DNA of 41,787 nt, from positions 1 to 41,787 of IMG/VR virus record IMGVR_UViG_3300012928_000011; one strand, given 5' to 3'. The position numbers and the translations under genes were made by a program. Source of the stretch: a virus. The notes below the pieces were generated by a model, which had not been told where the DNA came from, searched no databases, and saw only the letters and a program-made list of their open reading frames with translations. Below, in pieces: positions 12,672-41,521 of this stretch (position 1 is the stretch's first letter; every line of letters begins with the position of its first letter).

Positions 12672-12673
12672 TC

Positions 12674-12870: not shown

Positions 12871-12873
12871 CAT

Positions 12874-12945: not shown

Positions 12946-12949
12946 CTTC

Positions 12950-13032: not shown

Positions 13033-13605
13033 ATGATTAAACACACACCGTATATTATCGAATATCCTGGGTTTGTAGATCCTAGAACAACTGCTGCACT
13101 ACAGCAAAAGGCATCTATACTACTCAAATACAATCCTAAGAATACTACATTTCATAGAAAGAATAGAGGTTACCATCTAGGTGAGTATAAGCATGTTGAT
13201 GGTATGCAAGAACTCAACTATGAGATTGACAAGATCGGCAAGAAAGCATTCATGCGATACTATAGAGACTGTCCTCTAATCGCATATAGTATTATCCAGA
13301 GTCAGGGATTCGTCTCTAACTATGTGTATCGTTTTTATGACAAGTCAGATCACTATAACTGGCATGTAGATCGTTCTCACGATGACCTACAGTTTATAGT
13401 GTCATTTCTTCTCTATCTGAACGATGGGTTCGGCGGTGGTGATACTTTGTTCATGAATGACAGACTTAGAATCCGACCACAAAATGGTAGCGTCCTAATG
13501 TTTCCTTGTGGACCACATTTCCTACACAAATCTACAAAAGTTACATATGGTCAAAAACATGTTATGTGGAACTGTTTCGGACAAAGAGGACCCGCCCCCG
13601 TATAA
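13033..13605 (+). CDS. 2OG-Fe(II) oxygenase, prolyl-4-hydroxylase-like
   Basis: 190 residues from ATG 13033, one base after tRNA-Leu. The double-stranded beta-helix motifs are clear: HVD (H111, D113); FLLYLNDGFGGGDTLF as the conserved Gly-rich turn; VLMFPCGPHFLHKS with distal His H162 or H165 (H165 fits spacing); and a basic GQKHVMW near the end where 2-oxoglutarate would bind (Lys rather than the usual Arg). No ribosome binding site can lie between the tRNA and the ATG, so translation may use sequence inside the tRNA or a near-leaderless processed mRNA. The substrate is unknown; it directly precedes the giant virion gene. Confidence 0.85.
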   Translation: MIKHTPYIIEYPGFVDPRTTAALQQKASILLKYNPKNTTFHRKNRGYHLGEYKHVDGMQELNYEIDKIGKKAFMRYYRDCPLIAYSIIQSQGFVSNYVYRFYDKSDHYNWHVDRSHDDLQFIVSFLLYLNDGFGGGDTLFMNDRLRIRPQNGSVLMFPCGPHFLHKSTKVTYGQKHVMWNCFGQRGPAPV

Positions 13606-22600: not shown

Positions 22601-25600
22601 AGCGAAGCGTGAGGACGGTGGTATCGTCTTCTACACGGGTCTGAACTCTAACGGTGACCTCTACATCGGTAACAAGAAAGTCAACGCTATTACTGGCGAA
22701 GAGACATTCCTTGAGTCTGCAGAACTAGTTGATTCTGAGGACGAAGATGAGGATATCGGCACCCTCGTTACAACGTTCGACTCACCTGTAACGTTCAACT
22801 CTACTATTACAGTAGCAGGTAAGGCAACTCTCAACGCTCCCGTTGAGATCAACGTTGAGGCAAGCGAAGGTGATGCACTAAGAGTTCTCTCTAACATCGG
22901 TGCTGGTGACGATCCTACACTGTTCAATGGTTCCTGGAGAACACAATCTGACGGTGACATCGTTATCGCTAAGAACCAGATTAAGGCAGCAGTCTTCTAT
23001 CTGAATGCACGTCCAAAACCTGGAGCACAATACGGTCAGTCCTACACCTGGAGAACTAACTATCTCGCAGGCGAACCTTCCAACATTGTTCCTTGGCAGG
23101 AGACCAACTACTTCTATGCATCACAGAATGTTTCCTACGGTGGCAATGATCCAGAAGCTGGAGATATCATCTATAAGGGTAGCTCCATCGGTCAAAGTGG
23201 TTCACTTGGTTGGATTCTAACTAACCAGTTCAAGTCTGCTGAGACATCTGTTCAGACTATTACTGCAGATGGCACACAGAACCTGACCATCTCCTGGATT
23301 GCAACTGAAACCAACAACTCTATTGGTATCAAGGGCAACTCCACAATTAGAATCTCGAACTTCAGCAACCCTGTTGTTAACGGAACATGGGAGATCGTTG
23401 ACTGGGATGAAGGAACTTCACCTGGACAGCAAACACTCAAGTTCAGAATCAGCACACCAATTGAAAACGGCACTATCTACAACTGGGTAGATCAAAATGC
23501 TGGTGCTGACCTACAGTTCTCTGTTTCTAACTGGAAGGAGACTGGAGTCCTGGGTGCTGAAACTCTCAGAACATACACTGAGCAGCGTGGTGACTTCAGA
23601 CTGGGTATCAACACTGTAGCAAGAGCAGCACACTCTGCTGTCCTAACTGCTAACGTTGATGACTTCACAACACCAAGAGCAACCCTGGATGTTGTCGGAA
23701 CAACATTCATCAGTGGTAGAACTCTGGTTGAGTATAATCTTGCTGGTGAAGTATCCGACAACCGCTACGATGATAACAACCTCAACAGCGATCAGCGTGA
23801 GGGTCTAACTGGTGCTTCACTAGCATCACAAGGATTCATTCCTCAGGACAATGCACTGCTGGTTGGTGGTGATAGCAATGATCTAGAGCAACGTGCAACT
23901 CTCCGTGTTTCTACTACGGACAATGCATCTAATGCTCAAGGCATCGGTTATCAAGAAGGTGGTAAGGTTGGTATCAACACAACCCTAGGACTACAAGCAC
24001 GCGATGAACTGGATCGTAACCTAGTTGTTGTCGGTGATGGTAGAATCACTGGTAACTTCTTGATGGAGCAAGACATCAGTGTAGACGGTGGAGACATCAA
24101 CACTACATCTGAGACCTTCAACCTGATCAACAACAACGCAAACATCATCAACTTTGCTGGTGATGGTCAGTTGATCGACATGTTCAGCAACACTACCAAC
24201 GATCAATCGATCACCATCGGTAGTAACTCCAACTTCCAGACGGTCAGAATTGGTAACAACTCTGCAAGATCTATCTTCAGTGTTCATGCTCAGTCTGCTA
24301 ACGCTCTGGTTGACATCGCATCGGTTGCTGACGACGCTACTAACTCCTCTCAGGTCTTCATTGGTGGAGCATGGGCAAACACGGACTCCAAGGTCGTCCT
24401 AGGATCCTCTCAGACCGTTGCTGCTGGTAACCTGGAGATCGGTAGCAAGGTTGCTGCTGGAACTGGAGTCTCTAGACTCTTCACTCAGACTGGAAAAGCA
24501 AGACTGTTTGACGATGACAGAACGCAGATCATTGAAGCATTCACGAAAGCGAATGACATCACGATTGCATCTCTGGGTGGATCTACAACTATCAGAAACT
24601 CCCTGAAGGTTCAAGCATCTGCAACCATTGACTCCAACATCATCCTGGACGGTGGAACAACTGCTGGTATTGTTGAGATTGTAAGAGGTAGATTCTCTAC
24701 TCCTATCAACCTCCACAACCTTGGTTCACTTGACGTTCCTAACCTGGACTTCTATAAGTATTCTACCACTGGTAGATTCCTTGATACAGAAGGTAACAGA
24801 TTCTGGGGTGGATCACAAGACCAAGCAGGTGGTGGTAGAATCGGAGCATTCGATAACATCCAAGCAGCACCTGATGCAGCACGTATTTCTGGACAGTATA
24901 CCTTCAGATTCGCTGATGGTGGCACAGGTTCTGGCGCTGCATTCGATGTTGGTGTTGCATTCGATGGCACCGTTACTATTGAACTAGTCGCTGCAGGTTC
25001 TGGATACGCTGATAACCAGACACTAACTATCCGTGACACTCAACTGGGTGGCGGTGGTGCTCCTGATATCACCTTCGACATCAACGGTGTTACTGACGCA
25101 AGCGAGGTGTTCATCCTCCCAATCACAACACCTGCTGCATCTGACTTTGACATCGGTGATCTGATCCTTCTGGACCGTGGCAACGCTGCATCTCCTGACG
25201 CAGTTACTCCACAGGGTGGATCACAGGTTACTAACCTGAGAGATCAGCAGTATTCTGAGATCATGCGTGTTGTCGGTCTTGACAACCTCACCAACCCACT
25301 TGATCCTCAAGGTTTCAGAATCTCTGTTACAAGAGCACAAGAAGGAACTGGTGATCCTGCTACTGGTGATGGTTGGACTAACCACCCTGATGGTTGTGTC
25401 ATCGCTAAACTTGACAAGCAACCTGCAGCATCCTTCATCACTGGTAAGGACGTTGGTGGTCTTAATGGTTCACCTACTACTCCTGATGGTATCCTGGATG
25501 AACCAAGAGCTGGTATCGATGGAACCAGTGGCAACGTAAGAATCGGTGTTGCTGAGTTCGGTGGAGTTCTGACTACACTAGACCTCCTGAGAATCGACCA

Positions 25601-26642
25601 GTCTGAGATCGTTGGCGTTGCTGCAGTTGTCAGCACTGACATTCAGTCCCTGATTGTTACCGATGGTGGTGATCCTGCTGTTGTTAACTTCAAGGTTGAG
25701 TCTACAACTGGTAACACAACTATCGCTGGTAACCTCGGCACAGGACTCGGATTCAATAAGTTCACTGTTGCTGGTGCATCTGGTAACACTAACATCGCTG
25801 GAACACTCACTGTAGAGAACACCATCACACTGAATGGTTCTACTGTTCCTAACCAAGAGTTCTTCACCATCACTAATGGTGGTCCTTCCTTCGAGGATGA
25901 CGGTGTAACGGTTGACGTTCCACTGAGAACTACCTTCCAAGTTGATAGTGCAACTGGTAACCTGTTGATGAACGGTGGTAACATCAATATCTTCGGAACT
26001 GATGGAACCACACCACGTCTGACATTCAACAACTCTTCGGGTGACTTTACTACCTACGGTTCGTTCTCTGCCCTTGGCGATGGAATGTCCTCCTTCGGTG
26101 GTCCTGTCACGATGGCGGGTGACCTAACCGTCAACGGTGGTGATCTAACTGTCAACCAGAACGGCGTTGAAGTCTTTGCTGTAGATGATGATGGTTCACT
26201 GAATATCGGTGGCATCTCTAACTACTTCTCCAGCACTGGTGGACGTAAGTGGGTCGTTGTTAACAACAACCTCATCAATGCTGTTGCTAACGTTAACTAC
26301 TTCGTTGACATCTCTGGAACATCACTGTTCAAACTACCTGCGAATGCTCAAATGGGCGATATGATTCGCATTATAGATATAGGTGGTATCCTTTCATACG
26401 ACAAGTCTCTAGTTGTTCGTGCTCCTAATCTCGTAAGGATTCAGGGTTCGATCAGTAACACAGGAACTACTGTCACGGGTAACACTCTAGGCGAGAACTT
26501 CTCACTCACTCACGATGGTGGTGAACTGGTTGTTCAAACACCAAACGCAGCATTCGGTCTTGTTTATGCTGGCACTTCTGACGCTGATGGTGGTCCTGGA
26601 GCGAATCCCAATAAGGCAGGATGGTATCTAATGGACGTATAA
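13644..26642 (+). CDS. Giant virion structural protein (4332 residues), tail-fibre-like
   Basis: The start is ATG 13644, after an exact late promoter; there is no clear ribosome binding site. The N-terminus (MPLTRLDNLYSSKTGKYLY, then GNSPLRPFKTIQRAF) resembles very large structural proteins of cyanomyoviruses, some annotated VrlC or tail-fibre-like. Visible repeats: two tandem 43-residue units (106-148, 149-191); three units around C308, C395 and C469 sharing DG...YPR.G.D; HTF.SA repeats (about 510-580); and at least five helical modules with paired Cys motifs (C.RD....DA at 221, 697, 841, 1631, 1904, each with a nearby C.D.Q..ID-like helix). The C-terminal third is built of short beta repeats (NLGTGLGFNKFTVAGASG type), suggesting a fibrous shaft. 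There is no enzyme motif, transmembrane segment or signal peptide. Position before the collar proteins and adhesins suggests a side-fibre or baseplate-periphery component. Confidence 0.75.
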   Translation: MPLTRLDNLYSSKTGKYLYVSPDDFNATDELDNRGNSPLRPFKTIQRAFIEVSRYSYLPGANNDRFDQFSIMLMPGNHYIDNRPGLVTETAVEARYFDAANLLEGNRQEVIDRAVAQVSVQHPDFYYPGDPQTGAWSRFKDAYRLIQKNRDELIDRATAQIPVAHPDFVYPGDPTEGLWSRYKDAYRLIQLNKDLISQDAFDFMNATSPPSPLPNGYGTSCVRDIGFLIDAISLDVHEGGGNKYTRKYITNYFNDAGTDWTGTVDRYTPTDATYDPATGLTTLTFAQPHSITGNDQVYLDEGALTFTCAMDGDDAEKSYPRVGIDPFALRGYDVTATTANSITIQGGISGPNKYFQPSAADYNPVTGEMVVTVGQHGLGVGRGVVLEDNSFTFTCALDGNVEQKTYPRPGQDPFAGKSIAITAVGSTSHTATDSTYNTATGIVTLEINNHGFSSGDYILVEDESLSYTCELDGDTVAKAYPRPGYDYPSGRWLEITVIDGNNISIDIGSSEYQGAHTFVSAAADGIKRQDGTFTLQVGTSSDTSAHTFISATAQAIKHEPQDVHTFVSALANGVRVDKTGGLRGEEASSLVAFSKAVELMKLAITNNYASTSSPGSEYQDLTVVTGEAVYGDGNGDVTNTDPTACSDVQTYIDNLYATIDSIFNDTDLRVNNGAFLLSNVLPAESVSDKISAGHAKCKRDTSFVLDAIALDVHEGGGNRYTRKLLQNYFDSTGNNWVVNGLQGETAESLTAFAKLFTEMKKAITNQLYFKDIGITPGDAIFGNSNSPQENLPSGNPAACADIQSQIDTLGAIVTQIINDENLTNLPDESTSDVISAGYAKCKRDSGFIVDGIINDLRTEGNANTITNAKAYFDRFGNPIANGVLGEEAESITAFNGIATFAKKAVTNQLFFKDLTISAGPAYANANTPEIPNLASGNAATCVDVQATIDTLIKILTDVIEVGNLDELAAIKVTGVLPSFNYNRALEEWQDNSIVDLANPDNVLYKFNAATGGCIVPRGCSLIGYDLRRTVVRPLYVPDPADTSQERTSIFNLTGGCYLWQFTIKDGDLSAQSPLYDASAGVGKVYYKKGSTELAIPEYSHHKICIMTYADRTDLDNYYDKVGKSFQQFQTDIDDGGLEALVQENRIVGPLSDSRTIESIRIDDSATFTGNASSSTILNNVTNAESLEVGYEITSPDVNVSIAPNTRIESISGTTVTLNQAISGTGNISFLASFGYANITITTKIDHGYFEGQYVAIINSGLSDEINGTWKVTKIDGDNPKIFEYEVYNNTAASLGLVSGQTYLSGEVGGVSTNAVVLAEIDSVESASPYVFNCSIRSTWGQCGMWADGSKATGFKSMVVAQYTGVSLQKDDRAFIRYDALTNTWNQASLTDAFATVPYHTKGDAYWKDDWRNFHIRASDDSFIQCVSVFAVGFFDHFLMESGGDMSITNSNSNFGNTSLHSVGFKGFSFNQDKGGYITDIVPPEIVSSSNEVINQWYTLDVPASNSRTNHTRLYLAGDGITDPDDRPASSINGYRIGAKSGETLAVDLARYPIEPTGPIEFEQTLEPNGFKSWTVGIETLTPNSANVDNYAQDAANQIEDNKALIQAEGYQYIIAKYPELLTKPNITIGKCERDIGYFVDAVVNDLRLGGNINSIQAAEGYYIAGEVAYIAGELNETIDSLDYVKNVMIAAMRNFDYLVRDAETFSGSAVVNVPSTQGLMIGMRVVEYDPSDFSNGKLNISNTPIYTNIPENSFIKNIISDTQIELGIPGAKLTSGSSRNAVGSVTGAFLYFTLENPAWATISPSVDETITQDAQVDGNGNPLPECQNIATTIEGYFNEIFLVLNTGYTALGGREVDAYNAIIANKRFIAAEAVYRVANDPAFAGTKLGQGLLASTGETIQDACVDDVENTLAAIAYNIKFGGNNKVYDAAELYLTGAHLDGEEPESVAAFNLARDLAILAMRQETITIQGTHGLTQTIDSQVLPEYDQNGQLVTPPCADIALAITTSTALITTAINGGSIGNKTLPVFSAVTRVEPTSDLTGLSARATLFTLATGGVAGNPNPHDLESGTPVRLVPRPKAGTNPDKRVIRLPKGFDTNTKYYVIAPGRNLYPENFSVSNSVITVTEAAGTSFTTANATRATVPGIYRSLVAQPKIDTDGTALARGTGLRFNLTVNADGSIEFGNAANNLDGIANGGSRFEIGDIVVVGDGQLGGSGAPDLEIEITAVSPAEYPGVFDGTETNKLMLATSPENAAAGIYMYSSETDSVDPEVEIVINSFVLDTKYDLHKYKSNVVGASEIETNVAHIFDVPAPNTTPQRVFVRVASDIQGSTLPQLSGSASTISTQTEYFIRYVSNKRVTLHNTAADAESGDRALTFVSGTGNNFYIYANKRPSPLRFDPVYSTATNQSGLWYLNVADESSNGTANYNRYSILSRFHGGNELANDFQTKTDPTLDTRYTRVEDKREKEERVYRMRYVVPNYLETVRDPLNGFVIKTRTDDKRRLIPQRVRLRPIAGNPNNVASFYNPVGANEQIGLNKTELIADQIRTIDPSVVDLLPEQQNLYDPYLAPKVIEFDSKIAATVQSARKVTPAGQTDEFLELTLFDHTIVNQSVKNEIFTVVRTNFLQGGFLQPNATQSNDNNRITWETTSGNAASSGSAYLQAWFNDVNTAQITLVLKDVQGEITYDPASTVIFTQSNGANVELTDVPNSFGDFDYKDKSKRENFLYRVEGSNVYTIAPGDTITDDTGQNTYYVDTIEDQGDFDDCFYIFDIDTLQKRIPNQQDGIYYLTCLRGNISPFPTGSGVGENFRNFKFSQPISQLYPINFKNDPLWFQVDGTTGVRDTNILDVPQTFSAADNYVHGLVTVNDAKGSETKEMVEDIIRNTALNQYQYTNSTTDSNGDIIDNRIQAQEGNATSGSEDRLIPISGDSQFPTERKLYIELRRPSIARSGNHTFEYLGFGPGNYSTGFPLRQEVVLTDKQDFYAQAKREDGGIVFYTGLNSNGDLYIGNKKVNAITGEETFLESAELVDSEDEDEDIGTLVTTFDSPVTFNSTITVAGKATLNAPVEINVEASEGDALRVLSNIGAGDDPTLFNGSWRTQSDGDIVIAKNQIKAAVFYLNARPKPGAQYGQSYTWRTNYLAGEPSNIVPWQETNYFYASQNVSYGGNDPEAGDIIYKGSSIGQSGSLGWILTNQFKSAETSVQTITADGTQNLTISWIATETNNSIGIKGNSTIRISNFSNPVVNGTWEIVDWDEGTSPGQQTLKFRISTPIENGTIYNWVDQNAGADLQFSVSNWKETGVLGAETLRTYTEQRGDFRLGINTVARAAHSAVLTANVDDFTTPRATLDVVGTTFISGRTLVEYNLAGEVSDNRYDDNNLNSDQREGLTGASLASQGFIPQDNALLVGGDSNDLEQRATLRVSTTDNASNAQGIGYQEGGKVGINTTLGLQARDELDRNLVVVGDGRITGNFLMEQDISVDGGDINTTSETFNLINNNANIINFAGDGQLIDMFSNTTNDQSITIGSNSNFQTVRIGNNSARSIFSVHAQSANALVDIASVADDATNSSQVFIGGAWANTDSKVVLGSSQTVAAGNLEIGSKVAAGTGVSRLFTQTGKARLFDDDRTQIIEAFTKANDITIASLGGSTTIRNSLKVQASATIDSNIILDGGTTAGIVEIVRGRFSTPINLHNLGSLDVPNLDFYKYSTTGRFLDTEGNRFWGGSQDQAGGGRIGAFDNIQAAPDAARISGQYTFRFADGGTGSGAAFDVGVAFDGTVTIELVAAGSGYADNQTLTIRDTQLGGGGAPDITFDINGVTDASEVFILPITTPAASDFDIGDLILLDRGNAASPDAVTPQGGSQVTNLRDQQYSEIMRVVGLDNLTNPLDPQGFRISVTRAQEGTGDPATGDGWTNHPDGCVIAKLDKQPAASFITGKDVGGLNGSPTTPDGILDEPRAGIDGTSGNVRIGVAEFGGVLTTLDLLRIDQSEIVGVAAVVSTDIQSLIVTDGGDPAVVNFKVESTTGNTTIAGNLGTGLGFNKFTVAGASGNTNIAGTLTVENTITLNGSTVPNQEFFTITNGGPSFEDDGVTVDVPLRTTFQVDSATGNLLMNGGNINIFGTDGTTPRLTFNNSSGDFTTYGSFSALGDGMSSFGGPVTMAGDLTVNGGDLTVNQNGVEVFAVDDDGSLNIGGISNYFSSTGGRKWVVVNNNLINAVANVNYFVDISGTSLFKLPANAQMGDMIRIIDIGGILSYDKSLVVRAPNLVRIQGSISNTGTTVTGNTLGENFSLTHDGGELVVQTPNAAFGLVYAGTSDADGGPGANPNKAGWYLMDV
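13959..14216 (+). repeat. Tandem 129-base (43-residue) duplication
   Basis: Units at 13959-14087 and 14088-14216 encode residues 106-148 and 149-191 of the giant protein. Both units share HPDF, YPGDP, a W-S-R-(F/Y)-KDAYRLIQ end and an N-R-x-E-x-IDRA start. The DNA has diverged more than the protein, so the duplication is not recent. Confidence 0.8.
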
Positions 26643-31060: not shown

Positions 31061-32457
31061 TGGCAATTATATACACTAGTAATGATCTTCCAAACTCATA
31101 CGGAGGATATACCAATGGTGCCTGGGGCACCTTGATGAATACTTATGGCAGACGATTTACGCCAGGAACTGGAGAAGGTAATGCGTTTGTAGGTGTCACG
31201 TTTAATTTCAGTGTTACTGTAAACTTTCCATATCCTGGAAACTATACAGTCAAAGCATCAGCTGATAATTTTGGATCTCTTAGAGTTGCAGGTAATAACT
31301 GTGGTGTCTCTGGATTTAACAATGAATCTACTACAACTTTCTTTGCTAATGCTGGAAATCAGACAGTTTCTGGATCAGTTCGTAATGGTTCTGGCACTAA
31401 CTATGATACCAACCCATATGCTATTGCATTCACAATTGATGCACCAAGTCAACCACCAGCACCATCAGGAAGCATCTCGATCGATAAGTCTAGCATCATT
31501 GCTGGACAAGACTCTGCAGTTATAACTTGGTCTGCTAGTGGATTTATTAATTCGGTTTCAATTTCAAATATAGGTAGTGTTGGAACTTCTGGATCTCAAA
31601 CAGTTAGTCCAAGCACCACTACAATCTATACTCTCACGGTATCTGGTGATGGTGGAACTATTACTGATAGTGTTACCCTAACAGTATATCAACCTGTCAG
31701 TGTCAGTATTTCTGCTGCTCCAGCTGCTATTATTGCTGGAGGAATTTCTCAACTAACTTGGGTTACTTCTGGAGACGCAACTTCAGCATCACTTGATCAA
31801 GGTAATGGTGCTGTTCTGCTATCTTCTAGTAGAAATGTAAGTCCTAATGCAACAACCACATACACATTATCTGCTTCTGGTCCTGGTGGATCTGATAGTG
31901 ATTCTGCTACTGTTACTGTATATCAAAGACCAACATTAACTAACAGTGTTCCAACAGGTGTTGATTACAATGGAACCTTTACTGCTAGTGTCACTACAGA
32001 GTATGCAAATAGTGGTGTAAGTGCATCATATATTTACTATTATCTTGATGGAACAACAGACACAGCAGTTGTCAATGGATCTCCTAATGCTGATTCTTTT
32101 AGTGCTGGTGAGGTAACTCAAGATTTATCAACAGTAGTTCCTTGGACTGATTTTGGTCCTAACCTTATTATTGTTACTTTCACTGCATCTGGTGATGGTG
32201 GTGTTGTAAATCAAAGTGAAACTATTAATGTTAACATTGACCAACTACCTGACAATATCACTATTCCTGAGAACTTAGATGAAATACCAGAGGATCAAGT
32301 TGAAGCACCTGATGAAGAAACAGTCCTTAGTGATCCTATTGTAATTACTGGCATAGATATACCAGTAGAAATCAGATCTAACAAACCAATTCAAGTTAGA
32401 TTTGACGATGATGATCCAGACATAGAATCTAACTGGAAAGACGTTCAACAAATCTAA
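31060..32457 (+). CDS. Adhesin-like paralogue with lectin/PA14-like head and Ig-like repeats
   Basis: 465 residues from the ATG in a TAATG overlap with the preceding paralogue. The head (about 1-125) is a beta-sandwich-like domain with YTVKASADNFGSLRVAGNN and a later NPYAIAFTI strand. This resembles sugar-binding PA14/lectin-like domains in phage fibres, though the assignment is tentative. Two Ig-like repeats follow (SSIIAGQDSAVITWSASG; PAAIIAGGISQLTWVTSGD), then the shared C-terminal module ending SNKPIQVRFDDDDP...VQQI. It is the middle member of a three-gene tandem family whose members differ mainly in the N-terminal head. Confidence 0.7.
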   Translation: MAIIYTSNDLPNSYGGYTNGAWGTLMNTYGRRFTPGTGEGNAFVGVTFNFSVTVNFPYPGNYTVKASADNFGSLRVAGNNCGVSGFNNESTTTFFANAGNQTVSGSVRNGSGTNYDTNPYAIAFTIDAPSQPPAPSGSISIDKSSIIAGQDSAVITWSASGFINSVSISNIGSVGTSGSQTVSPSTTTIYTLTVSGDGGTITDSVTLTVYQPVSVSISAAPAAIIAGGISQLTWVTSGDATSASLDQGNGAVLLSSSRNVSPNATTTYTLSASGPGGSDSDSATVTVYQRPTLTNSVPTGVDYNGTFTASVTTEYANSGVSASYIYYYLDGTTDTAVVNGSPNADSFSAGEVTQDLSTVVPWTDFGPNLIIVTFTASGDGGVVNQSETINVNIDQLPDNITIPENLDEIPEDQVEAPDEETVLSDPIVITGIDIPVEIRSNKPIQVRFDDDDPDIESNWKDVQQI

Positions 32458-34226
32458 TGGCACAATCAACTGTAACTGTCTCTTTTGCTTTTGGTGGATC
32501 ATCAGGAACTATTCCTGGTGGTGCTCAGAATATCACCATGCAAATTGGCGGCGCTAGGGGAGGATCTGGAGGATTCGACGCTGGTGGTCCTGGTGGTGCA
32601 GCAGGAAATGGTAGGTTTGGAACATTTTCCATCCCATCATCATCCTCAGATAGAAATTGGGCAGCATATATTGGTGCTGTAGGATCTAATGGTCCTGGTG
32701 GATCTGGTGCTGCTGTTGGTGGTCCTGGTGGTAACTTATCAGGTAGAAGTAATGGTAATGGTGGTAAAGGTGGAGATGATGGCACTAGTGGATGGTCTGG
32801 TTGTGCTGCTGGTGGTGGAGCAGCATCTGTCTTCCGTCTAGCTGGTGCTCGCGTAGTCACCGCTGGTGGCGGTGGTGGTGGAGGAGGAGGATCCTTCTCG
32901 TGTGGTGGTCCTCAACGTCCTGGAGGCAATGGTGGTGCTGCTGGTGGTTTTTCCAACGGCAATCCTAGTCTAGCAAATGGTGGTGCTGGTGGTAACAAAG
33001 GTGGCGGAGACGGCGGCGGCGGTGGAGGCGGCGGTGGCGGTCACACTGGTGGCGGTGGTGCTGGTCCTGGTCAAGACTGTCAGTATGGCGGCGGCGGTGG
33101 CGGTGGCGGCAGTTCCGTCTACAATGCTAGTGTTCTGAACTTAATTGCACAAGGTGGTGTCAGTGGTAATGGATTCGGATCACTACAATATAATTTAAAA
33201 GTTGCTGAGATTAACTATTTCCAGTTAGACAAATCAAGTATCATTGCTGGTCAAAGTGCAACTCTATCGTGGAGTGTAACAGATTCTGAGTCTCAAAGTA
33301 TTAATGCAGGAATTGGTAATGTCTCTGCTGTAGATACTAGAAATGTTTCTCCAAACTCAACCACACAGTATAAACTAACTGCTATTGGTCAGGCAGGTAA
33401 TGATGAAGCGTTTGCACTTCTTACTGTATACCAACCAGTTGTTGCTAACTTGAGATCTAATGGACAAAATGTCTCTACATCTATTACTAGAGGACAGACT
33501 GCAAACTTAGATTGGGTTGTCACTGGTGATGCATCTTCAGCATCAATTGACCAAGGTATTGGTAATGTTTTGCTGACAAGTAATACAAATGTCAATCCTA
33601 CTGTAACCACCACATATACTCTGTCAGCTAGTGGTCTTGGAGGATCAGACACTGATGGTGTTACTGTTGTTGTAAATCAACCACCAGAGATATCATATAG
33701 TGCTCCATTGCAAATCAATTATGGTGACACGCTATCAATTCCTATCACATACAGATATGCAACTGGTGGTGTGAGTATCAGTGCTATCTATCAACAGAGA
33801 GATCCAAACACAGGTAACTCTGTAAACGTTACACAAAATCTTTCTCTGCCAGGAACAAACTCAGATGAGTCTGGTGCAGCAGTAACTAACACTGCAAACT
33901 TTATTGTTCCCTGGACATTACATGGAACATTTGCTATCTCATTTACTGCTGTTGCTGGTGGTGCAGGTGGATCAGTTTCTAGCAATACTGCTATTGGTGT
34001 TGTTGTTGACGAGGCACCTGATAACATTACTATTCCAGATAATCTGGATGAACTACCACTTGATCAGGTTGCAGCACCTGACGAATCACTAGTTATTAGT
34101 GATCCTATTGTTGTGACAGACATTGAGGTTGCAGCAGAGATTAGATCTAACTTCCCCATCCAAGTTAGATTCGATGATGACGATCCAGACATAGAAACTA
34201 ACTGGAATGACGTTCGTCAAATCTAA
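32457..34226 (+). CDS. Adhesin-like paralogue with polyglycine head and Ig-like repeats
   Basis: 589 residues from the ATG in a TAATG overlap. Residues about 1-225 are extremely Gly-rich, with runs of eight or more Gly around 140 and 185-215, GGPGG motifs and little else. The beginning (STVTVSFAFGGSSGTIPGG) resembles glycine-rich phage fibre domains, and the tracts recall the polyglycine-II sandwich adhesins of T-even-like phages (S16 gp38 type); homology is unproven. Two Ig-like repeats and the shared 73-residue C-terminal module follow. GGC/GGT/GGA codons alternate, making the DNA (about 32860-33115) locally GC-rich and repetitive. Likely a receptor-binding tip protein. Confidence 0.7.
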   Translation: MAQSTVTVSFAFGGSSGTIPGGAQNITMQIGGARGGSGGFDAGGPGGAAGNGRFGTFSIPSSSSDRNWAAYIGAVGSNGPGGSGAAVGGPGGNLSGRSNGNGGKGGDDGTSGWSGCAAGGGAASVFRLAGARVVTAGGGGGGGGGSFSCGGPQRPGGNGGAAGGFSNGNPSLANGGAGGNKGGGDGGGGGGGGGGHTGGGGAGPGQDCQYGGGGGGGGSSVYNASVLNLIAQGGVSGNGFGSLQYNLKVAEINYFQLDKSSIIAGQSATLSWSVTDSESQSINAGIGNVSAVDTRNVSPNSTTQYKLTAIGQAGNDEAFALLTVYQPVVANLRSNGQNVSTSITRGQTANLDWVVTGDASSASIDQGIGNVLLTSNTNVNPTVTTTYTLSASGLGGSDTDGVTVVVNQPPEISYSAPLQINYGDTLSIPITYRYATGGVSISAIYQQRDPNTGNSVNVTQNLSLPGTNSDESGAAVTNTANFIVPWTLHGTFAISFTAVAGGAGGSVSSNTAIGVVVDEAPDNITIPDNLDELPLDQVAAPDESLVISDPIVVTDIEVAAEIRSNFPIQVRFDDDDPDIETNWNDVRQI

Positions 34227-34261: not shown

Positions 34262-37200
34262 ATGCCATATCAGTTTAGTGCCAGTCCGCTGTATGTTGAA
34301 GAGGGACAGTCTATCCAGTTTCGTTACGAAGCTCCCCCTCTGTTCAACGACATCACTCAAGTTGAGATTCAGATTGGCGAGCTTACTGTTTTCTGGGTTA
34401 TTGAGACTAAGCTTGAGGACTTTGAACCTGATCCGTTCTTCCTTAGAGATATTGATGGCGCAGAACCTGACGTTCTTTTCACATATGCAGCAACCACAGA
34501 TCCCGACAATGGTGTTGCATATACAGGACAGGCAGGTGAACCCAATCCACTAAGAGAAGGCGAAGAAGTTATTACAATCACTGGTCTTGATCCTGGAACA
34601 CAGGCACCATTGATTGTCAGTTCTAATGTTATTGATGAGAACGACTGGTCCTATCGTCTGAGAATATACAACGAAGGATCCAGCAGTTATGGTGCGTGGG
34701 GTGCATGGACTAGAGCACTAAACAATACTGTATCTAACAACGATCAGATTCAGGTAAGACTGGTATCTTCTGGTGCGCCATCAGATACAAAGAATGTTGT
34801 TGTTACTGTTGGAACAGGTTCTGCTACCTGGAACATTACGACTGGTGCAATCCCAGTCAACACACCAAACCCAGCACCAGACTTTGGTTCACTAAACAAT
34901 CTACCACTTGGTGTTCTTGTATACAGTGATGTTGCACAAATTCTAGGACTAACTACTGCTGCTACCATTAGTGTTGACAATGGTGCCGAGATTGCAGTAT
35001 CTAACTTCAACTCTACATTTACTAATGCTAGTGGATATGAAGTTCTCAATAATGTTTCATCTGGATGGGGCAACAACCTGACTGTAAATAATGGTCAGTA
35101 TGTTCAGTTGAGAGGCACATCATCTCTAACACCAACAGCAACTATTAACTTCAGTGTTACTGTTGGTGATGGTGCTGGTATTTCTGTATGGCAGGTTACA
35201 TCTGGACAAGGTGTTGATGATAATCCAAGTAACTGGACATTCCAAGATCTAGTCAATCAGATTCCTGGTCAGACTGGTCTAAAATCAGAAGTTGCATCTG
35301 GTTCTTCTACATCAGTTGCTGGTAGAAATGTAGCACTGGTCAGTGGACTTGATGCTGGTCTATCTGTTCCTGTTGTAATTAGACCTGCCGATACTAACAT
35401 TGTTCCTAAAATTAGTATCAACGGTGGTTCTTCAGGTCTCATCAATAATGTCACAGTTCAAAATGGTGACACCATCGAACTAGTTGTTGATAACTCTACA
35501 GATATTACTGATCCTTTGGTTCCTGGTCAGGGTGTAGTTACTGTTGGTATCAATGTAGGAAATAGATTTATCCAAACATGGTCAGTATCAAACTGGACTG
35601 GTCCAGATACTATCCCATCGTTCACACCCATCAACCAAGTTATTAATAGAACTCCTGGTGGTTCTAGTGTCATTGGTCCTATTGGATTGACTGACTTCAA
35701 CCTACCAATTACTATCAGTGCAACAGCACCTGAATCATATAACGAGTTCAACTTTGCTACGAATGAGGACATTGGTAATGTTTTGTTCTCTATCAATGGT
35801 GATGCAGCAACTGTAGGACCACGCACAGTTAATCCTGATCCTGGTGGTAACCCTGTGTTCATCACTATTATCATGGAACAACCTGGAAATGCAGATCTAG
35901 AACCTGTTCAAGGACTATCACATTATGGTCAGACAGTAATTACATTTGGTGATGCATCTCCATTCCAGTTGAGATCTATCAACTATGCTGTAAAACCAAT
36001 CCCACCTGCATATCTTGGTGTGTGGTATTCTGAGAAGAATGCATTCTTCAATGATGATGCATGGATAGCAGCAGGTGAAGATCCTAACAACGCTAAAGAT
36101 TACTATAGAGCACCTAAGTTTGATGGTTACTCTATTGGAACTGTTGTTCCTATCACCAAAGAAACACCACTGAATGATGGTAACTTTGGTTATGGTGATA
36201 TTGAAGAGAGATACCCTGGATTCTTGCCATGTGATGGTGCATCCTACTCAGCATCAGATTATCCCTGGTTGTGGGAAGCAATTGGTAACACATATGGTGG
36301 CAACGCTACATATATTCCTGCAACTAAATCCTACACTGGAAACTTCAATGTCCCAGACTATCGTAATGTTAGAATGGTGGGTGCTGGTATTGTTGATGCG
36401 AACAGAGGATCATCTTCATTCGTTCCTGTAACTAGTGCTGGTGGTTCGTTTGAGATTACTGGATCAACTGGTGGTTACTGGTATGTTGATGATGTTGATG
36501 TTGCTGGTCCAGATCCACTAGAACAGGTTATTGCACCTGCTGGCAGCAGTGATGGCATTGCATCGGATTACTTCACATTAGGAACTCCAAGAACATTTGG
36601 AACAGAAGAACTAGAGGCAGATGTTGAATTCACTGTTACTGGTGAAGTTGTTGCTAACATCGGTCCTGTTAGTGATGTTTCTGTTCGTCCTCCACAGCAC
36701 GAACACGAACTAATCAGTGGACAAATTGATAGTGATGATGGAGATCCACTCATTCCATGGTTCACCAGAGCATACTATGGCACCAGTGCTGGTGGTTCAC
36801 AGAACTGGAGTGGAAGACCTGACGGTGATACTGATGCTGTTGATGATGGTTATTGGGAAGATGCAAACTTCTGGAACTTTGGTAGAATTGAGACAGAGAC
36901 TGAGAACTCTGGTAGAGGATCGATCCTAGATCTGTTGCCTGGTAGAGGTAGCAGCAGCGTAGCATTTGGTAACTACTGGGGTTCACCATTCTCAGAAATC
37001 AGTGGTCTAAGTGATGATTACTTCACCAAGAATGGTAACCCCAACAACGGGGATGCTGGTGTTATTGACACAGAAGCAACTCGTGCTAGAATAGATAACT
37101 ATCTGTCTATCTACACTGGCACACTAAATCACTCTCACTTGTTAGGAACTGATCCTGTTACTAATCCACAGACTGACTTCTCTTATGGTAACGTCAACTC

Positions 37201-37435
37201 AGACGCTACTGCATTCAGACAAGGACTGGCAACATTCAACTCTACATTCTCACTCAAATTTACTCAGAATGCCACGACAGATGGTGGAGCAGGTGTTGAT
37301 ATCGAACTGAACCCAGCAACATTTGCATGGAACAATACCAGCAAACCAATCCCTACTGCTGCTATGAATCCACAGCGCAAGGTTCCTATCATCGCACCAT
37401 TCCACAAGGTTAAATATATAATTAAGGCATATTAA
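34262..37435 (+). CDS. Large tail-fibre protein with C-terminal collar domain
   Basis: 1057 residues from ATG 34262. The first 600 residues are beta-rich Gly/Asn/Thr/Ser sequence with repeated units containing VTVG.G, W.VTSGQG and T(I/V)S(V/I)(D/N)(N/G)G, and no enzyme motif. A collar domain lies at about 645-700 (YPGFLPCDGASYSASDYPW, then FNVPDYRNVRMVG). Metal-type His motifs are HEHE (from H813) and HSH (957-959). The end, HKVKYIIKAY, matches the other collar proteins. I infer a long or short tail fibre whose tip is the collar/HxH part, with the N-terminal part attaching to the baseplate. It is immediately followed by oxygenase and chaperone-like genes. Confidence 0.75.
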   Translation: MPYQFSASPLYVEEGQSIQFRYEAPPLFNDITQVEIQIGELTVFWVIETKLEDFEPDPFFLRDIDGAEPDVLFTYAATTDPDNGVAYTGQAGEPNPLREGEEVITITGLDPGTQAPLIVSSNVIDENDWSYRLRIYNEGSSSYGAWGAWTRALNNTVSNNDQIQVRLVSSGAPSDTKNVVVTVGTGSATWNITTGAIPVNTPNPAPDFGSLNNLPLGVLVYSDVAQILGLTTAATISVDNGAEIAVSNFNSTFTNASGYEVLNNVSSGWGNNLTVNNGQYVQLRGTSSLTPTATINFSVTVGDGAGISVWQVTSGQGVDDNPSNWTFQDLVNQIPGQTGLKSEVASGSSTSVAGRNVALVSGLDAGLSVPVVIRPADTNIVPKISINGGSSGLINNVTVQNGDTIELVVDNSTDITDPLVPGQGVVTVGINVGNRFIQTWSVSNWTGPDTIPSFTPINQVINRTPGGSSVIGPIGLTDFNLPITISATAPESYNEFNFATNEDIGNVLFSINGDAATVGPRTVNPDPGGNPVFITIIMEQPGNADLEPVQGLSHYGQTVITFGDASPFQLRSINYAVKPIPPAYLGVWYSEKNAFFNDDAWIAAGEDPNNAKDYYRAPKFDGYSIGTVVPITKETPLNDGNFGYGDIEERYPGFLPCDGASYSASDYPWLWEAIGNTYGGNATYIPATKSYTGNFNVPDYRNVRMVGAGIVDANRGSSSFVPVTSAGGSFEITGSTGGYWYVDDVDVAGPDPLEQVIAPAGSSDGIASDYFTLGTPRTFGTEELEADVEFTVTGEVVANIGPVSDVSVRPPQHEHELISGQIDSDDGDPLIPWFTRAYYGTSAGGSQNWSGRPDGDTDAVDDGYWEDANFWNFGRIETETENSGRGSILDLLPGRGSSSVAFGNYWGSPFSEISGLSDDYFTKNGNPNNGDAGVIDTEATRARIDNYLSIYTGTLNHSHLLGTDPVTNPQTDFSYGNVNSDATAFRQGLATFNSTFSLKFTQNATTDGGAGVDIELNPATFAWNNTSKPIPTAAMNPQRKVPIIAPFHKVKYIIKAY
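37409..37416 (+). promoter_or_regulatory. Possible late promoter (GTTAAATA)
   Basis: GTTAAATA lies 27 bases before ATG 37444, the same spacing as the CTAAATA motif before 34262. It lies inside the codons of the conserved VKYIIKAY end, so it could be coincidence. Confidence 0.25.
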
Positions 37436-37443
37436 ACTATAAC

Positions 37444-38172
37444 ATGGCAGTCGCACATAATGCAGATCCCACTGTTGGTAAGGTCCAACAGTGGAGACCA
37501 CTTGAGTTGATGCAAGATCCAAACATCACCAAGTCTGAATTCACTGATTTTATTGGAGTATGGGAAAACTTTGTTCCTGCTCCATTTTGTGACCAATGTA
37601 TTGGTTGGTTTGAGAATCTATTGAACAAGCGTGGTTCATTTGTTGGACCAGAAGATTTTAGTTTTGGTGACAAGGGTGATCAACAGGAACAGTTTGATGA
37701 TCACTTTATGAATGGTGCTACTCAGTATGGTAGCAACATGACAAGGAAGGATGTATCTGTTCTTGCTAACTATGTCAACCAAGGCATGACATATCAGGTG
37801 AATCAATTCCTGAAGTCATGTATGGTTCACTATATGGCAGAGTTTGGACAACTAAAGAATGTCCCCATGATCTCTGCTGATGTCAAGATGCAGAAGACAT
37901 TACCTCAAGGTGGATACCATCAATGGCACTATGAAAACTCTGCTGCATCACATGCATGTAGAGAAGTTGTGTGGATGATTTATCTCAACGATGTCCCCGA
38001 TGGTGATGGTGGTGAGACTGAGTTTTTGTATCAAGGTAGAAGAATTAAACCAACAAAAGGCACAGTTGTATTCTTCCCTGCAGGCATGACACACGTTCAC
38101 AAAGGAAACACACTGTTCAACGGAGATAAATATATCTTGACAGGATGGTATATCAAGACGGCACTAGCATGA
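37444..38172 (+). CDS. 2OG-Fe(II) oxygenase
   Basis: 242 residues from ATG 37444. Iron-site motifs are WHYE (H162, E164, an HxE rather than HxD pair), VWMIYLNDVPDGDGGETEF as the conserved strand-turn, and TVVFFPAGMTHVHKGN with distal His H217 or H219. These are followed by KYILTGW, where a basic residue would bind 2-oxoglutarate. The N-terminal 80 residues (ENFVPAPFCDQCIGWFENL) match the start seen in prolyl-hydroxylase-like phage proteins. It lies directly after a fibre gene and overlaps the chaperone-like gene by ATGA, which suggests coordinated late expression and possibly fibre modification. Confidence 0.8.
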   Translation: MAVAHNADPTVGKVQQWRPLELMQDPNITKSEFTDFIGVWENFVPAPFCDQCIGWFENLLNKRGSFVGPEDFSFGDKGDQQEQFDDHFMNGATQYGSNMTRKDVSVLANYVNQGMTYQVNQFLKSCMVHYMAEFGQLKNVPMISADVKMQKTLPQGGYHQWHYENSAASHACREVVWMIYLNDVPDGDGGETEFLYQGRRIKPTKGTVVFFPAGMTHVHKGNTLFNGDKYILTGWYIKTALA

Positions 38173-39092
38173 CCTCAAGCACACCGATCATAAGGAAACC
38201 ACTATTGCAGTTGGATCTAATTAACAATACGATCCTGCAAGCACCTAACAGTGCTACTACATTGTCGGATTTCAACACTGCATCTCTGCAAAATCTAGAA
38301 TTTGAAGAGGAACTTAAGACTAAGTTCCTTGAGATGATTGGAAGTTTCTGGCACACAGAAGAAGATACTCTTGACTTCTTCAGTTATTTTAATGATGGCA
38401 CCTACATGGCGCAACGTAAGAGACAGAAGTATGACTTCAAGTCTGAGTCTCTTTATTGGTCAGAATATCAGTTCAAGAGTAGCACTCCAGAACAAGCAAC
38501 GCAGGTATATAATACTGCACTAGCATTGTTTGCTGTTGCTGCTAAGCGTAAGACTGATGTTGCACTCAAGAAGACTGAAGCACTAGACAAAGAGATCAAC
38601 TTCTTTGAATCTAAGTGGATCAAGAGATCTAGAGAGAAGCAGTTGATGCTCAACGCTAGTGATTGGCGTGTTCTTCCTGATGTTGAAGATTCTTATGAAG
38701 GTGAGAAAGCACTGTGGATTGCATGGAGAGCAAAGATTAGATCTATTGCTGTTCCTACACCAGAACAATATGATGATAAACTAGAATTTGCAAAAACTCT
38801 ATATAATCAAGTTTATCCAATTGATCCTAAAAACTACAGAAAACTATATGAGGGTGTAGAGAATCCACCAGCATTCATGGATCCTGATGATTCTGAGCAA
38901 TGGACAAACTACGATGATGATGCATCATCTGACTTCCTTGACAGCAGAATGATCAACAAACTGATGTATGCTAAGCAGAGAGCATCTGGTAGCAAGAGAG
39001 TTAAGCAAGAAGTTCTTGACATCATTAAACTGATGCAAGTAGATTCAATCTATCCTGATTTCGATAGCAGTCAATTTATCCTGGACGACTAA
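38169..39092 (+). CDS. Protein with tail-assembly-chaperone-like segment
   Basis: 307 residues. I start at ATG 38169, which overlaps the preceding TGA (ATGA), rather than at an upstream in-frame ATG inside the oxygenase. Residues about 160-195 contain LNASDWRVLPDVEDSYE followed by ALWIAWRAKIRSI. This matches the SDW..LPD..LS.E....W..YR..LR pattern of phage tail fibre assembly chaperones (Phage_tail_APC). The rest is helical and charged, with an acidic C-terminus (NYDDDASSDFLD). Its position after the fibre genes supports a role in folding or assembling fibres. The segment match is good; the large flanking regions are unassigned. Confidence 0.6.
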   Translation: MTSSTPIIRKPLLQLDLINNTILQAPNSATTLSDFNTASLQNLEFEEELKTKFLEMIGSFWHTEEDTLDFFSYFNDGTYMAQRKRQKYDFKSESLYWSEYQFKSSTPEQATQVYNTALALFAVAAKRKTDVALKKTEALDKEINFFESKWIKRSREKQLMLNASDWRVLPDVEDSYEGEKALWIAWRAKIRSIAVPTPEQYDDKLEFAKTLYNQVYPIDPKNYRKLYEGVENPPAFMDPDDSEQWTNYDDDASSDFLDSRMINKLMYAKQRASGSKRVKQEVLDIIKLMQVDSIYPDFDSSQFILDD

Positions 39093-39093
39093 T

Positions 39094-39768
39094 ATGTTTT
39101 ATGAATGTGAGATTCTTAATGAACAACAACTGACACACATTAATGATCTATACGACAAGGCAGAGTATACACAGGGAACTGTATCACAACGTGATGAGAA
39201 TAATGTAGATACATCCGTCAAGGATAACTATGTTATGTCTCAGCATACATCACAGTTTAGAAAGAGTCTGGAGATTATTCAGCAGGGTATCAATGATGCC
39301 ATTGCATTCAGATCTACTTTCGTTGTGAAAGAGATGACAGTTCCTCAATTGACAGAGTATCGTGAGGGTGGAAAGTATAATCCACACATTGATAACATCA
39401 CTGTCCAAGGACTAAAAGCACACCACAGTATCACATTGTTTCTCAATGACCCTGATGAGTATGAGGGTGGGGAACTAGTAATTACTGATGGTGACATGCC
39501 ATTCAAATTTAAACAGAAAGCAGGCACAGCATTAGTGTATCCTACAGGATACATGCATTATGTTGCACCTGTCACATCTGGTAAGCGTCGTGTTGCATTG
39601 ATGTGGGCAACTAGTCTTATCGAAGACTTCTTCATGCGTCATCAAATTCTTAACTTTGGTAAGAGTATTGAGAGACTGCTGAAAGAATATCCTGATGCAC
39701 CACAGGAAGTTCTTGTGCCATTTGAACAAGTAAGAACCAACTTTGTGAGAGAATATGGAAACCTATGA
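39094..39768 (+). CDS. PKHD-type 2OG-Fe(II) hydroxylase (PiuC-like)
   Basis: 224 residues, one base after the preceding stop. The full PKHD/P4H signature is visible: YREGGKYNPHIDN (H98, D100), FLNDPDEYEGGELVI, AGTALVYPTGYMHYVAPV (H155), and GKRRVALMWATS with Arg165 for 2-oxoglutarate. The C-terminal extension (about 170-224) is helical. PiuC-like proteins are often found in T4-like cyanophages. Its protein substrate is unknown. The end overlaps the next oxygenase by 14 bases. Confidence 0.85.
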   Translation: MFYECEILNEQQLTHINDLYDKAEYTQGTVSQRDENNVDTSVKDNYVMSQHTSQFRKSLEIIQQGINDAIAFRSTFVVKEMTVPQLTEYREGGKYNPHIDNITVQGLKAHHSITLFLNDPDEYEGGELVITDGDMPFKFKQKAGTALVYPTGYMHYVAPVTSGKRRVALMWATSLIEDFFMRHQILNFGKSIERLLKEYPDAPQEVLVPFEQVRTNFVREYGNL

Positions 39769-40270
39769 TAATGTGTTTGGTGACTATGACTTTGCACAAA
39801 TTATAGAGGACATGGCACGACCACAGTGGAGATATGGTCATGCATCAGTATCAAAAGATCATGATATCCCATTTTGGGAGATGAAACTGGATGCTGAACC
39901 GTTTTATACTGAGCATCTCCTAAATATCATTAGAGACGTGACGAATGAACCTGACTTAGAGTTAGAACGTGTCTATGCAAATGGACATGTCTTTGGTGAT
40001 AAGGCACTGCCTCACACTGATGGTCATTATGATGATTGTAGAACGTTCCTACTATATGCAAATCATATGTGGGATCATACCTGGGGTGGCAAGACTGCAT
40101 TCCGAGGTAGTGATGGCAAATGGACATATGTTGAACCTGCACCTAACAAGGCAGTATTCTTCAATGGACGTATGACACACTATGCAGAAGAAGTCTCTAG
40201 AACATTCAATTCATTAAGAGTTACAATCGCCTGGAAGTTAAATGGAGCTACACGCAAACTACACTATTGA
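39755..40270 (+). CDS. 2OG-Fe(II) oxygenase
   Basis: 171 residues from ATG 39755, within the end of the PKHD gene. The motifs are ALPHTDGH (H87, D89), FLLYANHMWDHTWGGKTAF, AVFFNGRMTHYAEEV (H142), and SLRVTIAWKL with Arg155. This gives a complete HxD...H and Arg set, so the protein should be catalytically competent. It shares the general fold but little sequence with the neighbouring PKHD enzyme. Two overlapping oxygenase genes in a row suggest joint action, or different sites on related substrates. Confidence 0.85.
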   Translation: METYDNVFGDYDFAQIIEDMARPQWRYGHASVSKDHDIPFWEMKLDAEPFYTEHLLNIIRDVTNEPDLELERVYANGHVFGDKALPHTDGHYDDCRTFLLYANHMWDHTWGGKTAFRGSDGKWTYVEPAPNKAVFFNGRMTHYAEEVSRTFNSLRVTIAWKLNGATRKLHY

Positions 40271-40595
40271 TTACTTGCAAGACTTTATTGAAGAGTCTGC
40301 CAAGCGTCAAGAGAAAACTGTTATCTTCCTGCGTTCTACTGGATGGAACAGCAGCAGTGATGTTGATGCAATCAATGCATCATATGATCTGTATAGAAAC
40401 AGACTACCAGTAGATATATTTGGTGCTCTACAAGAGTCTGAGTATGTGTTTATCATGTGTGATAATGTAGAAGAGGCAATGGAATGGTGTGAGGATCTAT
40501 TCCCAGTCAATCAGGCATCATGCACCAGACCAGAAGATTACATCTTCTATGGTGTCTACAGTCCTCTCGGTCAACTACTAGCGGATAACGAATAA
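40242..40595 (+). CDS. Small conserved-type protein of unknown function
   Basis: 117 residues from ATG 40242, overlapping the oxygenase by 29 bases. It has an acidic C-terminal half (SEYVFIMCDNVEEAMEWCED) and a strand-like KTVIFLRSTGW, with three Cys residues and no recognised motif. The overlap at both ends (TAATG with the next gene) shows it belongs to the fibre/oxygenase operon. I do not recognise a family. Confidence 0.65.
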   Translation: MELHANYTIDYLQDFIEESAKRQEKTVIFLRSTGWNSSSDVDAINASYDLYRNRLPVDIFGALQESEYVFIMCDNVEEAMEWCEDLFPVNQASCTRPEDYIFYGVYSPLGQLLADNE

Positions 40596-41467
40596 TGTTT
40601 GCAGCAGAACTTGACGTATCAAAAGTATACCGCTTGAGTGATAAGTCACTGCTGCACAATCATGCAGTGATGTGGCCTCAATGCACATCTCTGGTGGATA
40701 GTAAATATCCAGAAATCTTCACAAATACACAAATTGATAAATTACAAAAAGTCCTAGGATTTACTTTTCTTGATCCTGACTATTTTGTTCCAAAGTCCAC
40801 AACCAAGTATGTAGAGATCTACTACAACGATGAGATCGAGCAGATTGAGGCAACTACTGATATGTCAGTAGAATATCTGATGGACAAACAAGAATGGTAT
40901 CAACTATCGCTTGAGTTAGATCCTATCGAAGGAATTAGAGAGAGGATGTTGAACCTCTTCGAGAGGATTGGACCCAACCAAATTAGAATTGGTAAGTTTA
41001 AATTTGATGCTGATGGTAATACTATTAGCATGTCACATACACCTCAGCGTATCACAAAGTTGCTGCAAGGTTCTAGACTCTATCAATTCATCGAGAGAAT
41101 CTCACAACAGCAGCACAAAGTGTGGTTTGAGCACAACAAACTGAATCGTAATATTGTTGTCCACACACGTCGTGATTACACCAATAGAGTATATGCATTC
41201 CCTGCAAATGCAGCAGATAAACAGGTTGCATCACTAGACTGGCGTAAGAAGAAGAGACCCAAGTCTGAGATAAGAGAGAACTGGGTTGATCGTATTGAGC
41301 AAGTATATGAGATGATTAGTGCAGACGATGCGGCATGGATTCGCACACTAATTGATCATGATGACCAAGAAATTGACTTCTCATTTGTATTCAGTGATAC
41401 TGGTGCGCTCGAAGACGTGCTAGTATACAAGAGAGAGGCGAAGAACTTCCAATCGTTCCGCCCCTGA
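40595..41467 (+). CDS. Hypothetical protein of unknown function
   Basis: 290 residues from the ATG in a TAATG overlap. The sequence is of mixed alpha/beta character, with an N-terminal segment DVSKVYRLSDKSLL, a conserved-looking centre (IGKFKFDADGNTIS), and a basic patch near 215-230 (DWRKKKRPKSE). No catalytic motif, membrane segment or Cys cluster is visible. It is the last gene of the late block before a sigma70-type promoter. Function unknown. Confidence 0.65.
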   Translation: MFAAELDVSKVYRLSDKSLLHNHAVMWPQCTSLVDSKYPEIFTNTQIDKLQKVLGFTFLDPDYFVPKSTTKYVEIYYNDEIEQIEATTDMSVEYLMDKQEWYQLSLELDPIEGIRERMLNLFERIGPNQIRIGKFKFDADGNTISMSHTPQRITKLLQGSRLYQFIERISQQQHKVWFEHNKLNRNIVVHTRRDYTNRVYAFPANAADKQVASLDWRKKKRPKSEIRENWVDRIEQVYEMISADDAAWIRTLIDHDDQEIDFSFVFSDTGALEDVLVYKREAKNFQSFRP

Positions 41468-41492: not shown

Positions 41493-41521
41493 TTGACCAG
41501 CGTCGCTTAATGCTTTATACT
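41493..41521 (+). promoter_or_regulatory. sigma70-type promoter
   Basis: TTGACC (41493-41498), an exact 17-base spacer, and TATACT (41516-41521) form a strong housekeeping-type promoter. It is placed 28 bases before the helicase ATG at 41550 and marks a switch from the late operon to a host-sigma-driven gene. No late motif is present here. Confidence 0.75.

Follow-up and report, generated by a model that had tools for sequence, protein, structure and literature searches.

Collagen prolyl 4-hydroxylases (P4Hs) work with protein disulfide isomerase (PDI): a prolyl hydroxylase and a folding helper act on a fibrous protein. Mimivirus L230 is a collagen hydroxylation system of a virus, and the viral collagen prolyl hydroxylase (vCPH) of PBCV-1 belongs to a giant algal virus. 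In an earlier paper, prolyl 4-hydroxylase is described as an abundant viral gene whose viral use 'remains cryptic', and collagen in tail fibres is mentioned (PMC9301287); on that account viral fibre hydroxylation as such is not a new idea. For cyanophage 2-oxoglutarate (2OG) oxygenases, roles in DNA repair or 2OG balance have been proposed (PMC3037559 and PMC9146016). Host-adaptation experiments with S-TIM4 yielded mutations in the 2OG gene ORF23 as well as in tail genes; the ORF23 product was not particle-associated. Here we describe a cassette of 2OG-Fe(II) oxygenase genes, a tail fibre gene and a tail-assembly-chaperone gene in the IMG/VR virus record IMGVR_UViG_3300012928_000011 (positions 1 to 41,787; this whole stretch of 41,787 nucleotides is called the window). 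The best explanation, with a rough probability of 0.6, is that this late, tightly packed cassette matures the tail fibre by hydroxylation. No description of a fibre-chaperone-oxygenase cassette was found in the open-access literature, against which a cassette of this kind, conserved in phages and tied to a tail chaperone, appears new.

Over its last 7.8 kb the window was about 90% alike to Synechococcus myoviruses of the Syn1/S-RIM44 group in a similarity search, and by this measure its source is a Syn1/S-RIM44-like cyanomyovirus. The cassette starts with the short tail fibre gene F (34262-37435; Collar domain PF07484, 1.7e-8; phrog_4924, E 0) and continues with the oxygenase gene O1 (37444-38172), the chaperone gene C (called at 38145-39092), the oxygenase genes O2 (39094-39768) and O3 (39755-40270), and two conserved genes at the cassette end, U1 (40242-40595; phrog_4883) and U2 (40595-41467; phrog_4851), both matching families of unknown function. 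All of these, like the oxygenases O4 and O5 and the giant fibre gene treated below, are on the plus strand. The five 2OG-Fe(II) oxygenases claimed in the initial annotation were borne out by Pfam matches above the curated cut-off: PF13640 for O1 (8.7e-12), O2 (1.3e-14), O3 (7.2e-7) and O4 (4.3e-10), and PF13759 for O5. The same annotation had drawn the cassette too short, as the conserved U1 and U2 also belong to it (the order is kept in relatives at U2). Its description as overlapping genes holds for O1/C (28 nt with the called start of C) and O2/O3 (14 nt) and fails for fibre/O1 (8 bp apart) and C/O2 (1 nt apart); O3 and U1 overlap by 29 nt. Comparison of the window with Syn1 gave the pattern of purifying selection in all nine genes tested (dN/dS 0.07-0.25). 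A helicase gene (name taken from Syn1) lies 3' of U2 after an 82-bp gap. Promoter-like and terminator-like sites in the region were near the chance level (25 vs 22.3 and 6 vs 3.8, respectively), and a promoter-like site before the helicase (41493-41521) was therefore not used as evidence. Rfam gave zero matches.

For assessment of cassette conservation, 13 named cyanophage genomes were read around C or its homologue, and S-H9-1 was read additionally. The order fibre or structural gene, O1, C, O2, O3 was found in 12 of the 13 (with a small gene between C and O2 in S-RSM4); S-WAM2 carries fibre-C-U1 with no oxygenase at the locus, and S-H9-1 has O1-C-O2. IMG/VR was then searched with O1 and C profiles, and all open reading frames (ORFs) were scored with cassette-gene profiles. 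The loci comprised the best 80 of 589 O1 relatives and the best 80 of 111 C relatives, giving 141 loci that were thinned to 93; each count below covers the contigs that reach far enough on the side concerned. A fibre gene lay directly upstream of O1 in 91/91 contigs and C directly downstream in 87/87. Because sequence similarity to O1 or C was the basis for retrieval, the sample contains too few distant paralogues, and these two counts apply to orthologues. After C, O2 was present in 70/73 contigs and O3 in 70/73. U1 was within 3 kb of C in 35/36 contigs, and the helicase within 5.5 kb in only 13/36. These neighbourhood counts place the oxygenases with the fibre and chaperone; the helicase is often nearby, but its link to them is loose.

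O1 and C stay paired when O2 or O3 is missing: this was seen in the three contigs without O2 (L141, L145, L152) and also in L222, L227, L238 and others. On a quick tree of 78 C proteins (long branches: S-H9-1, S-RSM4, L060, L152), the distribution of the oxygenases required two changes for O1, three for O2 and four for O3, and in the large branch that includes the window O1 was present in 63/63. From these numbers O1 is the steadiest member, and loss of O2 and O3 is slightly more common. The 13 genomes held 90 PF13640 matches, of which 36 were O1-O3. Of the other 54, 19 lay no more than 2.5 kb from an end of the fibre block, compared with 1.6 expected (the block end was taken as U1 in S-WAM2 and S-RSM4, where U2 is unannotated); because the genomes are related, this enrichment is descriptive and does not amount to an independent test. 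The co-occurrence of oxygenases and fibres, which had been suggested as a check, was thus far from chance, and gene order gives good support to a dedicated fibre-linked system: in many genera the oxygenases and the chaperone are kept beside the fibre.

O1 is the prolyl-hydroxylase-fold member. Its AlphaFold (AF2) model had a mean predicted local distance difference test score (pLDDT) of 86, and the best Foldseek matches were, in order, PBCV-1 vCPH, PHD2 and the P4H of Pseudomonas putida (PPHD). Structural realignment gave Z 19.2 for P. putida PPHD solved with EF-Tu, 19.0 for PHD2 and 18.5 for PBCV-1; 177-194 residues were aligned with PPHD or PHD2, at 16-18% identity. With a profile of 58 O1 sequences, the best PDB match was vCPH (5c5t, 1.3e-5), followed by bacterial P4Hs (about 5e-5). 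The predicted fold of O1 is thus nearest to protein prolyl hydroxylases. Residues H162, E164, H217, H219 and K229 were invariant in the 58 sequences, with H162, E164 and H217 or H219 as the metal triad. The triad is HxE in 58/58 and departs from the canonical HxD of prolyl 4-hydroxylases. A PHD2 D315E variant is present in PDB with Mn(II) (4uwd, entry title), showing that Glu can occupy the triad position of Asp. PBCV-1 vCPH is virus-encoded and similar in fold, but O1 differs by its HxE and by its tie to a tail fibre and a chaperone. PPHD and PHD2 also share the fold; their substrates are known (EF-Tu and HIF, from PDB titles), whereas that of O1 is only putative.

The chaperone-like gene that had been noticed between the oxygenases proved to be a relative of tail assembly chaperones, as shown at sequence level by the match of C to phrog_4697 ('tail assembly chaperone', 3.7e-128). 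PF16778 (Phage_tail_APC) was matched by 40 of 58 C members at E ≤5 (best 4.1e-7; the window copy was unmatched), and the C profile found the solved protein 2kz6 at 4.3e-6 over a core motif (residues ~169-199) with conserved D173, P178, D179, W191, R195 and R199. The motif is common to C, Phage_tail_APC and 2kz6; C is about 315 aa and has large additional parts. The structure model of C (confidence 87.6) had no whole-protein fold match in PDB at E ≤0.001; in BFVD the good matches were three cyanophage relatives only, and the next was a tail assembly chaperone protein (E 0.024). PDI is the helper in the collagen pair, whereas C has the phage chaperone motif and no sign of PDI. In loci that lack O1, C is directly behind the fibre gene, and otherwise O1 is in between. 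Relatives of C start about eight residues after the called start, where the sequence reads ATGA (ATG at 38169; O1 stop codon TGA at 38170-38172), and C therefore likely starts at 38169 with an ATGA overlap to O1. Such an overlap is a usual form of coupled translation.

O2 and O3 are more conventional in their active sites. The O2 profile found 3dkq in PDB at 1.7e-39, over profile positions 1-216 of 218, and PiuC (9ghl) at 6.2e-35, and by this alignment O2 is a full-length relative of the PKHD/PiuC hydroxylases. PKHD-type enzymes (PiuC, Sbal_3634) align with the whole of O2, but O2 falls under the NCBIfam cut-offs (PRK05467: E 6.9e-39, 133.6 bits vs equivalog cut-off 143). We know of no link between cellular PKHD hydroxylases and phage fibre genes. 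Residues H98, D100, H155 and R165 of O2, and H87, D89, H142 and R155 of O3 (an intact HxD...H...R), did not vary among the 12 sequences compared for each enzyme. In O1-O3, triad and basic 2OG residues are assigned their roles from the family pattern, and the conserved metal and 2OG residues show all three as intact 2OG-Fe(II) oxygenases as far as sequence can tell. PDB matches of O3 were weak (best: OGFOD1 and PHD2). Its FlmC-family NCBIfam match was below the cut-off, and the FlmC name gave no lead from the literature. RefSeq labels most O3 homologues 'DNA endonuclease V', a name that PHROG also gives to the family; Pfam shows only an oxygenase domain (residues 81-158 of 171), by which this is a propagated wrong name and O3 is an oxygenase. 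In contig L133 (~11507-12051) O3 is apparently broken over three frames, by decay or sequencing error.

If the cassette matures the fibre by hydroxylation, C would hold the C-terminal part of the new fibre F, with its conserved tail. This tail is conserved across 14 fibres and ends in KYIIKAY in the window; it recurs in variant forms in the 213 loci tallied, and its ending is K-Y/H-L/I-I-K-A-Y/F with few departures. Its retention regardless of O1 makes a role in docking to C or in folding by C more likely than a role as the modified site. O1, translated just ahead of C through the ATGA overlap, would hydroxylate fibre side chains before or during trimerisation, with C bringing O1 and its fibre substrate together; O2 and O3 would add further, more dispensable hydroxylations, and O4 would do likewise for the giant fibre. 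The fibre might thereby gain stability, or its receptor contact might be set in this way. Proline is the first guess for the hydroxylated residue, because of the fold of O1. As in the collagen P4H-PDI systems, a prolyl hydroxylase and a folding helper would then act on a fibrous protein; those systems have collagen repeats as substrate, whereas the fibres of the window are without them. A more specific version is offered tentatively: O1 and C may be a working pair, in which C presents the C-terminal part of the fibre and O1, with a natural HxE iron site, hydroxylates it during trimerisation. If so, it might be the first system for tail-fibre hydroxylation in phages: most of one large marine cyanomyovirus branch would carry it, and podoviruses and the surroundings of collagen-like phage fibres would hold separate, independent versions.

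Several observations weigh against fibre maturation by these enzymes. With the S-WAM2 chaperone as query, 62 loci were retrieved, most of them fibre-C-U1 without O1; O1 was present in seven S-WAM2-like loci (L222, L227-L230, L238, L246), none of which had O2 or O3 beside C in the part covered. Fibre and C without O1-O3 (S-WAM2 and relatives) made up 10/78 tree rows, or 33/165 before thinning, and by gene content fibre and C can exist without any of the three oxygenases. The fibre-hydroxylation system of the initial annotation is thus partly borne out, by the conserved fibre and chaperone linkage and by the O1 fold, and weakened by this dispensability. Distant O1 relatives sit away from the fibre cassette: by gp23, gp3 and uvsW in S-RIM2 and S-RIM12, by talC in P-SSM2, among unrelated genes in S-SSM7, syn9, S-SSM4 and a Rhizobium phage, in an oxygenase cluster of HTVC008M, and behind a deaminase-like gene in Sf-CH8. 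No residue that tracks O1 was found in the fibre comparison; a His in the fibre tail looked like a perfect mark of O1 in the first set, and was rejected when it proved absent in the O1-bearing S-WAM2-like loci. The longest Gly-X-Y run in the seven fibre-like proteins of the window was 6 triplets, and the collagen family PF01391 was found in 0/13 related cassette-type genomes (among the 14 searched, only ACG-2014f was positive). A collagen-like substrate was therefore rejected for the window, and the analogy with collagen-type prolyl hydroxylation is not supported there. Late co-expression alone could also explain the position of the oxygenases. As a separate observation, the fibre-like protein encoded at 32457-34226 contains 20.5% glycine with poly-glycine stretches and resembles a glycine-rich adhesin, a different possible modification target.

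An unlikely alternative, and the best of those considered, is that the oxygenases hydroxylate host proteins (e.g. EF-Tu or a ribosomal protein) and tune translation or stress sensing late in infection, the fibre operon providing only the timing. The nearest folds of O1 include PPHD solved with EF-Tu, and PHD2; the weak best PDB matches of O3 point the same way, and O2 is similar to cellular PKHD hydroxylases. This explanation makes the strict adjacency of O1 to fibre and chaperone a coincidence, when many other late positions exist. It is improbable that O1-O3 are non-catalytic fold scaffolds that help C to assemble the fibre: Glu does replace the usual triad Asp in O1, but H162, E164, H219 and K229 are invariant across its 58 sequences, which would be odd for a dead enzyme, the triad and 2OG residues of O2 and O3 are invariant as well, and PHD2 D315E has been solved with Mn(II). 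Marginally less probable still is a small-molecule or free amino-acid substrate, or a draw-down of 2OG that steers nitrogen signalling. The biosynthetic enzyme PolD was the sixth Foldseek match of O1, and the 2OG-balance role was proposed in PMC3037559; nearly all other close O1 folds act on proteins, and 2OG draw-down leaves three different conserved enzymes around a fibre chaperone unexplained. That O1-O3 are DNA repair enzymes, as proposed in PMC3037559, PMC9146016 and PMC11288001 and in keeping with the helicase after the cassette in the window and some relatives and the S-RIM2 paralogue by uvsW, is very improbable, and a DNA-repair linkage of the cassette was rejected, because the neighbourhood counts tie the oxygenases to the fibre block and not to the helicase, O1-O3 had no Pfam match beyond Oxy_3/Oxy_4 at E ≤0.01, the fold of O1 is that of protein hydroxylases, and 'DNA endonuclease V' is backed by PHROG and RefSeq naming only. 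No AlkB-type family was matched by the five oxygenases in Pfam at the same threshold (O4 likewise gave only Oxy_3/Oxy_4, and O5 only Oxy_5/Oxy_3).

The proposed fibre hydroxylation by the cassette has a possible counterpart at the giant fibre gene (13644-26642; 4332 aa; phrog_4527 'short tail fiber protein', E 0). The initial annotation had listed two extra oxygenases, one of them directly before the giant fibre-like gene. The P4H-like O4 (13033-13605) does end 38 bp before the giant fibre gene; its PDB match in a phmmer search was a bacterial P4H (E 0.006), and an O4 homologue precedes the giant fibre gene in 5 of 12 related genomes (one weak), plus Syn1. O5 (11169-11783), a PF13759-type putative 2OG oxygenase (1.8e-18), sits among other genes, is separated from O4 by cpeT and four tRNA genes, is not specifically fibre-linked and is not clearly part of the fibre system. 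The tRNA genes (Thr, Ala, Asn, Leu) are located at 12599-13031, between cpeT and O4. Residues 95-131 of the giant fibre protein matched PF00502 (Phycobilisome) above the curated cut-off (28.5 bits, E 1.8e-6); no single stretch passes alone, and the match may be due to chance or to a repeat.

Related oxygenases were also found near fibre genes of other kinds. In podovirus S-TIP37 and contig L181 (the sole two in a single-protein scan), a tail fibre gene and a small gene are followed by a P4H-like oxygenase gene; the S-TIP37 enzyme is HxD, unlike O1. ACG-2014f (locus L185, NC_047714.1 13505-25052) encodes a collagen triple-helix protein (PF01391, 1.9e-36); after it come two genes, then those for a glycosyltransferase, a P4H-like oxygenase and a fibre, the oxygenase preceding the fibre as O4 does in the window. 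A search with the ACG-2014f oxygenase gave 12 loci, seven of them at least 44% identical. An ORF with at least 22 Gly-X-Y triplets lay within the retrieved stretch in six of these seven (in the seventh, L253, the sequence breaks off just upstream), and a Gly-X-Y-rich ORF directly adjoins the oxygenase in L254, L256, L257 and L258; among the five weaker loci it was found in L260 only. ORFs with at least 50% Gly were omitted from this listing unless longer than 350 aa. The 2043 ORFs of at least 150 aa from the cassette loci contained 19 with at least 15 Gly-X-Y triplets, none with more than 23. The Gly-X-Y proteins beside the ACG-2014f-type oxygenase have Pro mostly at X and Thr at Y (two proteins counted), and are therefore not the textbook X-Pro-Gly target. 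In all, ACG-2014f and five other contigs have an O4-like oxygenase gene close to genes for collagen-like fibres, and we regard these marine phages (ACG-2014f and L254-L258) as a cleaner setting than the window in which to seek fibre hydroxylation.

The genes for 2OG oxygenases, which are generally assigned to DNA repair or 2OG balance, rank among the most common cyanophage genes without an explanation. One conserved set of them is now tied to a tail fibre and its chaperone, and the propagated wrong name 'DNA endonuclease V' is corrected. If fibre hydroxylation is true, phage adhesion parts would bear an oxygen-dependent modification, which models of host recognition built on sequence only would miss.

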